This document shows positions 44,202 through 45,323 of a DNA stretch of 50,941 bases, piece after piece. This DNA comes from an uncultured bacterium (GTDB taxonomy: Bacteria > Cyanobacteriota > Vampirovibrionia > Gastranaerophilales > Gastranaerophilaceae). Within the stretch, counting starts at the first letter, position 1, and each line of letters starts with the position of its first letter. The stretch covers positions 1 through 50,941 of the forward strand of contig CADBNI010000008.1 of NCBI GenBank assembly GCA_902795965.1, given 5' to 3'. A program made the translations under genes and the position numbers. Below the pieces are notes generated by a model. It had not been told where the DNA came from and did not search any database. It saw only the letters and a list, made by a program, of their open reading frames with translations.

Positions 44202-45323
44202 GTGAAAAGTGAAAATTTCGTTACGTTAAAAAAAATAAAAACCAAGTCAGATAATGAAATAGAACTAATCGGTTTATCTTCAGATGAGGAAAAATTTTCG
44301 CATTGTCCGCTTGTTATCGGTGTTTTTCACGGTGATGAACCGCAGGGTAAATATTTGATTGAGGAGTATTTGAAAAATTTGTCGGGAGAACCCCCTCTCC
44401 CCTGCCCTCCCCCTCGAGGGGGGAGGGAGTATAAGAAATGTCAATACTCTCGATTTTCGTTAATAAAAGCAAAAGAATTGCGAAAAAATTGTACAGATGC
44501 TGAAAAAATTATGTGGGAAATTTTGCGAGCAAAAAATTTGTTCGGCTTAAAGTTCAGAAGGCAACAACCTATTGGTAAATATGTAGTTGATTTTGTTTGT
44601 TTTGACAAAAAACTTATAATTGAACTTGATGGCGGGCAGCATGGGGAGGAACAAAACAGATTAAAAGATGATGAGAGAACAAAGTATCTTGAACATTTAG
44701 GATATAAAGTTTTAAGATTTTGGAATAATGATGTATTACACAATATAGATGGTGTAACAGATGTAATTCTTAGTTCCGTTTTTGTCGGAGAGTATGTAAG
44801 ATGGGCTGAAAATAGTTCCCTCCCCCCTTTGAGGGGGAGGGTTAGGGAGAGGGGGATTTTATTTATCCCCTGTTTAAACCCCGACGGAATGGCGCAAAAT
44901 ACCCGCACAAACGCTAACGGAGTTGATTTAAACAGGAATTTTCCGACAAAAAATTGGGGCGAAGATACGAGTACGGCAGGGGAAAATCCTTCTGATTATT
45001 TTGGCGGAAAATCACCCGCAAGCGAGATTGAAACACAATTTGTCATTGATGTGATTGAAAAATACAATCCGTTCGTTATCTTGACTCTTCATGCTCCTTA
45101 TAAGGTGGTGAATTATGACGGACCTGCGCGTGAAATTTCCGAAGAAATTTCAAAAATAATCGGTTATCCCGTAGAAGAAAGTATCGGATATCCGACCCCG
45201 GGAAGTTTCGGAACTTATGCGGGTGTGGAAAGAAATATCCCTGTCATAACTCTTGAATTGGACGAAAAAATATCGGTCGAAGAATTGTCCCGACCGATAT
45301 TTGAAATTTTTGAGATGTTATAA
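44202..45323 (+). CDS. M14 peptidase (murein peptide amidase-like) interrupted in frame by a DUF559 domain
   Basis: The 373-residue product is two proteins in one. Residues 1-63 and 219-373 form an M14 zinc carboxypeptidase: Zn ligands in GVFHGDEPQG (His43, Glu46) and TLHAPYKVV, LNPDG, NANGVDLNRNFPT, and the catalytic Glu in TLELDE. This resembles MpaA, which cleaves the gamma-D-Glu-diaminopimelate bond in murein recycling. Residues 64-218 are an inserted DUF559 nuclease-like domain (AEKIMWEILRAKNLFGLKFR, QQPIGKYVVDFVCFDKKLII, ELDGGQHGEEQ) between GC-rich inverted repeats. Taking it out joins LSGE to ILFIPCLNPDG and gives a normal-length M14 (218 residues). The start is GTG at 44202 without a clear binding site. 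Whether the fused product keeps either activity is unknown. Confidence 0.88.
   Translation: MKSENFVTLKKIKTKSDNEIELIGLSSDEEKFSHCPLVIGVFHGDEPQGKYLIEEYLKNLSGEPPLPCPPPRGGREYKKCQYSRFSLIKAKELRKNCTDAEKIMWEILRAKNLFGLKFRRQQPIGKYVVDFVCFDKKLIIELDGGQHGEEQNRLKDDERTKYLEHLGYKVLRFWNNDVLHNIDGVTDVILSSVFVGEYVRWAENSSLPPLRGRVRERGILFIPCLNPDGMAQNTRTNANGVDLNRNFPTKNWGEDTSTAGENPSDYFGGKSPASEIETQFVIDVIEKYNPFVILTLHAPYKVVNYDGPAREISEEISKIIGYPVEESIGYPTPGSFGTYAGVERNIPVITLELDEKISVEELSRPIFEIFEML
44391..44855 (+). mobile_element. DUF559-encoding insertion element with 25-bp terminal inverted repeats
   Basis: The left end 44391-44415 (CCCCCTCTCCCCTGCCCTCC, then CCCTC) and the right end 44831-44855 are inverted copies with 22 of 25 matches. 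The element is 465 bp, exactly 155 codons, open in the frame of the host gene throughout. It encodes a PD-(D/E)XK-like DUF559 domain (DFVCFDKKLIIELDGGQH). The terminal sequences look like the short GC-rich family A repeats in this window. No target-site duplication is clear. I infer that this is the autonomous, nuclease-bearing form. Confidence 0.8.

Follow-up and report, generated by a model that had tools for sequence, protein, structure and literature searches.

In-frame, palindrome-ended DUF559 nuclease domains in conserved genes of Gastranaerophilaceae: candidate homing elements that would stay in the mature protein

In the window, a stretch of 50,941 nucleotides from an uncultured bacterium of the Gastranaerophilaceae, an M14 peptidase gene is interrupted by a block of 465 bp that is read in frame, ends in GC-rich inverted palindromes and encodes a DUF559 nuclease domain. 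We propose, with a probability of roughly 0.6, that this block and its relatives are homing-type selfish elements in which residence in frame takes the place of splicing. We favor a homing endonuclease because the blocks are bound to particular sites, patchy, apparently renewed horizontally, equipped with a conserved nuclease and housed in conserved genes. The unusual feature of the element is the absence of any splicing device.

Anatomy of the fused M14 gene

The gene is a single open reading frame on the forward strand (44202-45323, as are all features given here) that runs through 373 residues without an internal stop. Pfam recognizes Peptidase_M14 (PF00246, 1e-16) and, at residues 89-192, DUF559 (9e-41), which sits between the N-terminal part of the peptidase and its remainder. 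Aligned with orthologues, the N-terminal part with HGDE occupies 44202-44390 and the C-terminal part, with the NPDG, NRNFP, LHAPY and TLELDE motifs, 44856-45323. The inserted element between them (44391-44855) is absent from clean-empty orthologues and joined in frame at both junctions; as its 465 nt make 155 codons, deleting it leaves an M14 protein of 218 aa. Besides the PF00246 match, the peptidase has H43, E46 and H297, which are invariant in 37 homologues; H43 and E46 are presumably zinc ligands of the M14 part. In a Foldseek search, the nearest structure to the host part was E. coli MpaA, a murein-tripeptide amidase (best matches 5hxd and 4axv).

The ends of the block form a 33-nt inverted repeat (44391-44423 and 44823-44855) that is 85% complementary and matches at 22 of the outermost 25 nt; the 5′ end is REP-like and has an inner palindrome, or hairpin, at 44402-44429. 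The 5′ repeat encodes part of a Pro-rich linker, and the 3′ repeat part of an Arg/Gly-rich one (LPPLRGRVRERG). An AF2 model, for which 37 proteins from the window and from public loci were aligned, has two ordered domains (mean pLDDT 83). In the peptidase, the insert follows helix 48-61 and precedes strand 220-222. Both linkers (residues 63-79 and 197-215), which include the palindrome-encoded stretches, have a pLDDT below 50. The palindromic ends are thereby predicted by the model to encode disordered, flexible linkers.

The DUF559 domain (PF04480, 44466-44777) scores 138.5 bits against a curated cut-off of 20.6 over nearly its full length, and the weaker, related profile MTES_1575 is the sole other Pfam match in the insert. 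By sequence it matches PDB entry 3HRL strongly (E 8e-27) and 3R3P, a mobile intron protein, weakly (E 0.045); we attribute the other low-scoring PDB matches to chance. A putative active site can be read directly, consisting of D130 (VDF) and E141-x-D143-G-G-Q-H147 (44589-44642), and the corresponding motif D...E-x-D-[GC]-[SG]-x-H is present in 106 of 106 DUF559 copies (56 in frame, 50 free). The motif has the conserved E, D and H of EDxHD nucleases with their PD-(D/E)XK-type fold, the match to 3R3P standing at E 0.045 only, and DUF559 has been assigned to the EDxHD homing endonuclease family (PMC9403480). In I-Bth0305I, an extra DNA-binding part gives a long target (PMC3943268); the DUF559 domain alone (~105 aa) has no part of that type, which counts against the homing reading.

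These results bear out the initial annotation, which had described a 465-bp in-frame block with 22 of 25 matching end positions (ORF, Pfam and repeat search), a 218-residue M14 protein upon its deletion, and a DUF559 domain with a PD-(D/E)XK-like core, whose active-site motif is kept. It had also held that the block is not an intein. In agreement with this, Pfam detects no Hint or other splicing domain in the insert and the junction residues (PPLP... and ...RERG/ILF) are unsuited, showing neither the Cys/Ser nor the His-Asn of inteins, and we reject an intein on both grounds. A group I or II intron is likewise rejected, given that no Rfam intron lies within the window. More generally, removal of the insert before the protein works, be it by intein-like splicing, a self-splicing intron or ribosome bypassing, is very improbable. 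An intein-like position beside functional motifs in essential genes (Walker A in PriA) would suit it, and the insert ends could pair in the mRNA; besides the missing intein domain and Rfam intron, it is opposed by insert boundaries that differ by several codons among orthologues and by the conservation of the insert's frame and protein sequence, needless for an intron or a bypassed segment.

The in-frame DUF559 domains are under purifying selection, with dN/dS between 0.04 and 0.24 in the 17 pairs that gave a measurable value. Among 48 copies that lie well within a host frame, 39 are without a Met in the 39 residues ahead of the domain, while such a Met is found in 36 of the 38 other copies. 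Since embedded copies mostly lack a start of their own, the fused chain is most likely the only form in which they are made, as judged from sequence. The host genes are themselves strongly constrained while filled (in PriA, for example, pN is 0.03 at a pS of 0.66), which, together with the open frame, substantiates the earlier suggestion of a translation-tolerant element.

Recurrent sites, empty alleles and palindromes

Reading of open frames revealed palindrome-flanked DUF559 domains in frame at a few recurrent positions across the Gastranaerophilaceae (Melainabacteria). The M14 site lies before [IL]LFIPCLNPDG, and the PriA site in the linker before LLHGVTASGKTEVY, the Walker A motif. IspE has two sites, one at the N-terminus and one internal, before NDLEWA, both of them in one 577-residue ORF, and a radical-SAM protein has one at its C-terminus; in-frame DUF559 also occurs in PrmA and in a UvrD-like helicase (host names other than M14 come from motifs, not from a database search). 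Outside the Melainabacteria, a true cyanobacterium (G378) has a DUF559 domain with REP-like ends in frame in a host that resembles a restriction-modification enzyme (L230). In-frame copies were sought as long open frames around DUF559, a search confined to in-frame insertions in the sense direction, and the sense orientation of all in-frame copies is partly due to this. In a survey of 386 genomes from the phylum, Gastranaerophilaceae were rich in DUF559 copies, and among 58 relatives nearly all full-length copies fall in the genus of the window.

The named records with M14 relatives are gut metagenome-assembled genomes (MAGs) of Candidatus Gastranaerophilales or Melainabacteria, which raises the matter of an assembly or binning artefact. 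Such an artefact has a negligible chance of being the explanation: the same architecture appears in dozens of genomes that were obtained independently, in different studies and from different hosts, the inserts are internal to contigs, and the flanking host sequence has the expected divergence.

At the M14 site, 6 of 31 orthologues in the window's genus are filled, in the same loop and in frame, about 20 are clean-empty, and others carry short in-frame palindrome scars (e.g., PPSSKSNISRRG). Two M14 genes (L268 and L269) have kept window-type palindromes without the nuclease, and that of G027 has a second insert that is palindrome-only. Several end types and several DUF559 lineages occur in this loop in closely related hosts. 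A family-wide search found, among the frames listed, seven M14 frames long enough for an insert. The empty sites that the initial annotation suggested looking for are thus found in relatives, and the outcome that it had named as speaking for a stable fusion, namely an insertion in all orthologues, is not what we see, as 25 of the 31 congeners are without the domain at the M14 site.

Scarring extends to PriA, where G015 has a scarred allele. In other congeners (L153 of G007, L150 of G031, L151 of G009 and L152 of G021), the PriA linker and C-terminal region contain different in-frame inserts of low-complexity or palindromic sequence, such as repeated RQEDKPVSDEEEQ; PriA is therefore a hot spot for tolerated insertions. 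We also observed that a KsgA-like upstream gene and IspE share a single frame in L167 (G020) and L219 (G375), with a palindrome-only scar in G020 and an additional DUF559 insert in the ORF of G375. In L163 (G008) and L166 (G003), the N-terminus of IspE has another palindromic repeat in frame, one that is unrelated to the first (IAGQARND; TCATTGCGGG...), and a PrmA-like ORF (L232, G205) has a tandem array of linker units (YPTLEGGSKSSISGWGENN) ahead of its DUF559 insert.

The genome of the window (G000; 1.8 Mb in 85 contigs, of which the window is contig C8) gives eight DUF559 matches. One is an ordinary Vsr-like endonuclease gene adjoining a DNA cytosine methyltransferase gene (L008, C21:2901-3023). 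The other seven, which include the window's block, show GC-rich palindromes of the form CCCCTCACCCTAACCCTCTCCCC..GGGG..GAGGGG at every readable end, three of them being broken by contig ends. Further DUF559 copies with the same kind of ends, which the initial annotation suggested searching for, thus exist, with six more in this genome and many in related ones. A second in-frame copy lies inside PriA, in a frame of 943 residues. With up to three mismatches allowed, a search of the genome gives 15 occurrences of the consensus CCCCTCACCCTAACCCTCTCCCC and 0 of the reversed control. Without a nuclease, the palindrome (SPSPQPSPQRGEG, EEVNLSPSPQPSPQRGEGMKH) is found in frame in a 520-aa ORF, apparently an oxidoreductase (L041, C44:1381), in-frame palindromes genome-wide having been counted from pattern matches only. 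As a separate observation, window-type palindromes are fused in frame to prepilin-like leaders (FPRPLRERVRERGQKCAFTLAEV) in L043, L045 and L049 (C21, C59 and C80); such fusions recur at several places, and many of them lie at contig ends.

The association of palindromes with DUF559 is wide, since similar palindromes, judged by eye, adjoin DUF559 at 9 of 9 plasmid loci of unrelated bacteria (Azospirillum, Sinorhizobium, Shinella, Sphingomonas, Deinococcus and cyanobacteria). In two species of Deinococcus, plasmids (L333 and L336) carry the DUF559 gene inside the hpaB-hpaE (4-hydroxyphenylacetate) region, flanked by inverted GC-rich palindromes.

Trees and synonymous divergence of inserts and hosts

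In a tree of 106 DUF559 domains, the copies group mainly by site and not by genome. Single clades are formed by all 13 PriA copies (support 98/89), by all radical-SAM copies (96/85) and by the UvrD copies (100/99), the last being neighbors of the PriA clade, while M14 and IspE copies fall into several groups; the site-specific lineages occur across genera. As a rule, a copy is most closely related to the one that occupies the same position in a different species. Free transposition within a genome is rejected on this clustering by site.

A transposon-like REP or MITE element that lands at many places, with the in-frame copies as survivors in permissive loops, is on the whole improbable. Much about the palindromes would be expected of it: they are GC-rich and inverted at the ends, accompany DUF559 at all nine unrelated loci and exist alone elsewhere, in some cases in frame (L041 and the second M14 insert of G027), and free intergenic DUF559 copies exist as well. 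It would not predict that nearest copies share a site across species, with no recent burst within a genome, and no Y1/RAYT transposase was found in G000, nor was any target-site duplication noticed at the junctions read. We infer that the element recurs at fixed sites in a homing-like rather than a transposon-like manner. The initial annotation had called it a selfish element that spreads without killing its host gene, and this stands in part: the element is in frame and tolerated, and the phylogeny suggests that it spreads. It does not land just anywhere and happen to be tolerated, given site-specific lineages across genera.

Host trees were compared with insert trees by AU tests, for which the clade groups were chosen after the trees had been seen. 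Placing all filled M14 hosts in one clade was rejected (p 5e-9), as was the same for filled PriA hosts (p 2e-54), and a single ancestral M14 insertion with purely vertical descent is rejected on the former value. The M14 inserts of G030, G003, G029, G375 and G154 cluster (95/86), and a clade of their hosts was rejected (p 3e-22); forcing the M14 inserts of G000 and G029 together was not rejected (p 0.15), the insert alignment being short. On the 5′ side of its PriA insert, G020 shares about 36 nt with G024 and the scarred G015, and in this flank it is unlike its closer host relatives G022, G031 and G017.

The strongest evidence for spread of the inserts is synonymous divergence. Across 224 pairs compared within sites, and where host pS is above 0.5, inserts have a median pS of 0.69 and hosts one of 0.72; inserts are therefore not intrinsically slow. 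A handful of these non-independent pairs have inserts far less diverged than their hosts, with p values that are indications rather than exact probabilities because of that non-independence: the radical-SAM insert of G173/G098 (pS 0.07 vs. 0.58 in the host, p 1e-13), the PriA insert of the same pair (0.18 vs. 0.66, p 6e-12), the PriA insert of G024/G020 (0.13 vs. 0.56, p 8e-10) and further pairs with p from 4e-5 to 4e-4. The third insert of G173/G098, in IspE, serves as an internal control, with pS 0.75 for the insert and 0.59 for the host; as the three inserts thus give 0.07, 0.18 and 0.75 with hosts between 0.58 and 0.66, the low values cannot be put down to the species pair as such. When 100-codon windows of host sequence were taken as a null, 5 of 682 reached p < 1e-4, versus 5 of 198 inserts, and at least two of those five host windows (radical-SAM G173/G098 and IspC G132/G371) come from pairs that also have low-divergence inserts.

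A pattern in keeping with co-conversion of flanking sequence is seen in part of these pairs. In the radical-SAM gene of G173/G098, host pS drops from 0.91 to 0.29 on approaching the insert (near 0.23 vs. far 0.73, p 3e-9), and in IspC of G128/G341 it is 0.36 near and 0.68 far (p 4e-4). Such a gradient is significant in two to three of seven low-divergence pairs and absent in four; 8 of 120 controls had p < 0.01. Taken together with the host trees, the patterns of synonymous divergence suggest that inserts have moved horizontally between species into equivalent positions. For the window's own insert, no low-divergence pair was found among the within-site pairs compared, and recent movement therefore applies to its relatives and not to this copy.

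Some of this would fit a history of ancient domain insertions that persist because they benefit the host and are inherited vertically, with many losses and no active homing. Insert and host divergence are equal in most pairs (e.g., PriA G345/G245, M14 G030/G003 and UvrD G225/G269), which means long vertical inheritance there; site-specific clades, purifying selection on the nuclease and decay scars such as those of PriA in G015 and M14 in L268 and L269 would also be in keeping with it. We nevertheless consider this explanation unlikely, as it does not account for insert pS many-fold under that of the host in some pairs, for filled hosts scattered among empty ones, for several end types and DUF559 lineages in the same M14 loop of close hosts, or for the lack of an M14 insert in most congeners.

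Comparison with known elements and a model of residence in the protein

Inteins with a homing endonuclease domain are similar in being translated in frame in conserved genes near functional motifs, in their patchy occurrence and site-specific alleles, and in having a nuclease. The present element differs in that it has no splicing domain, apparently stays in the protein, has REP-like palindromic ends and is not bounded with residue exactness. EDxHD-type members reportedly come from introns, from beside inteins or as free-standing genes, as is said to have been described by Dassa in 2009. The EDxHD or Vsr-like homing endonucleases (I-Bth0305I, PDB 3R3P; “fractured genes”) share with DUF559 the nuclease fold, a motif of E-D-x-H-D type and the weak match noted above (E 0.045); known members have extra DNA-binding parts (PMC3943268), whereas DUF559 is here an in-frame domain of a host enzyme.

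Rickettsia palindromic elements are palindromic selfish DNA tolerated in frame in protein-coding genes (PMC10969869). They are about 150 bp long and not described as encoding a nuclease, and we reject this identity for the present element on account of its full conserved nuclease domain, although palindrome-only in-frame copies do exist. Yeast WHO elements home into the housekeeping gene FBA1 without protein splicing (PMC7282813), as separate genes that take the place of the 3′ end of that gene, whereas the present insert is internal and fused. In fungal mitochondrial rps3, a LAGLIDADG homing endonuclease coding sequence is fused in frame to the host gene (PMC10448965); unlike the present element, these fusions are intron-encoded ORFs of a different nuclease family and have no REP ends. 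REPIN/RAYT systems likewise tie GC-rich inverted palindromes to one enzyme gene and have palindrome-only derivatives (PMC3116915). The RAYT enzyme is a Y1 tyrosine transposase, and a REPIN/RAYT system is rejected here, as the Y1 (IS200-like) profile PF01797 has 0 matches in G000, which is 97% complete. We found no description of in-frame DUF559 elements in the literature mentioning DUF559, of which our coverage is incomplete.

Based on the homing reading, we suggest the following model. The body of the element would encode a small endonuclease of the EDxHD or Vsr-like kind, and its GC-rich palindromic ends, stop-free in the nuclease frame, would encode flexible linkers; as the palindromes would thus also serve as disordered linkers, the element could remain in the protein. 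At the DNA level, the palindromes may be recognition sites or recombination substrates, or they may be linkers only. The nuclease, translated only within the fused chain, would then be an additional domain tethered to a surface loop of its host, a conserved enzyme that still works. When DNA of a relative meets it, the fused nuclease or a proteolytic fragment might cut the insert-less allele, and repair by homologous recombination would copy the insert and a short flank into the empty site. Loss of the element would leave short palindrome scars. Within this scheme, we infer cleavage of DNA, recognition of the empty site and a single-chain product from the sequence comparisons above. We give even odds to the broader notion of “splice-less inteins,” by which palindrome-ended endonuclease domains would invade conserved genes of bacteria by homing and then remain tethered within the mature protein for good, with palindromes that double as linkers and a REP-DUF559 association across several bacterial phyla.

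A selfish element that sits in an essential gene is thought to require an exit via RNA or protein splicing. The present elements appear to get around this need as a harmless additional domain held by a flexible tether, which makes testable how much insertion essential enzymes such as PriA and IspE tolerate. The finding also offers a possible function for DUF559, a large family of “unknown function,” and for the GC-rich palindromes that surround it, and suggests a route by which domain insertions in proteins may arise.
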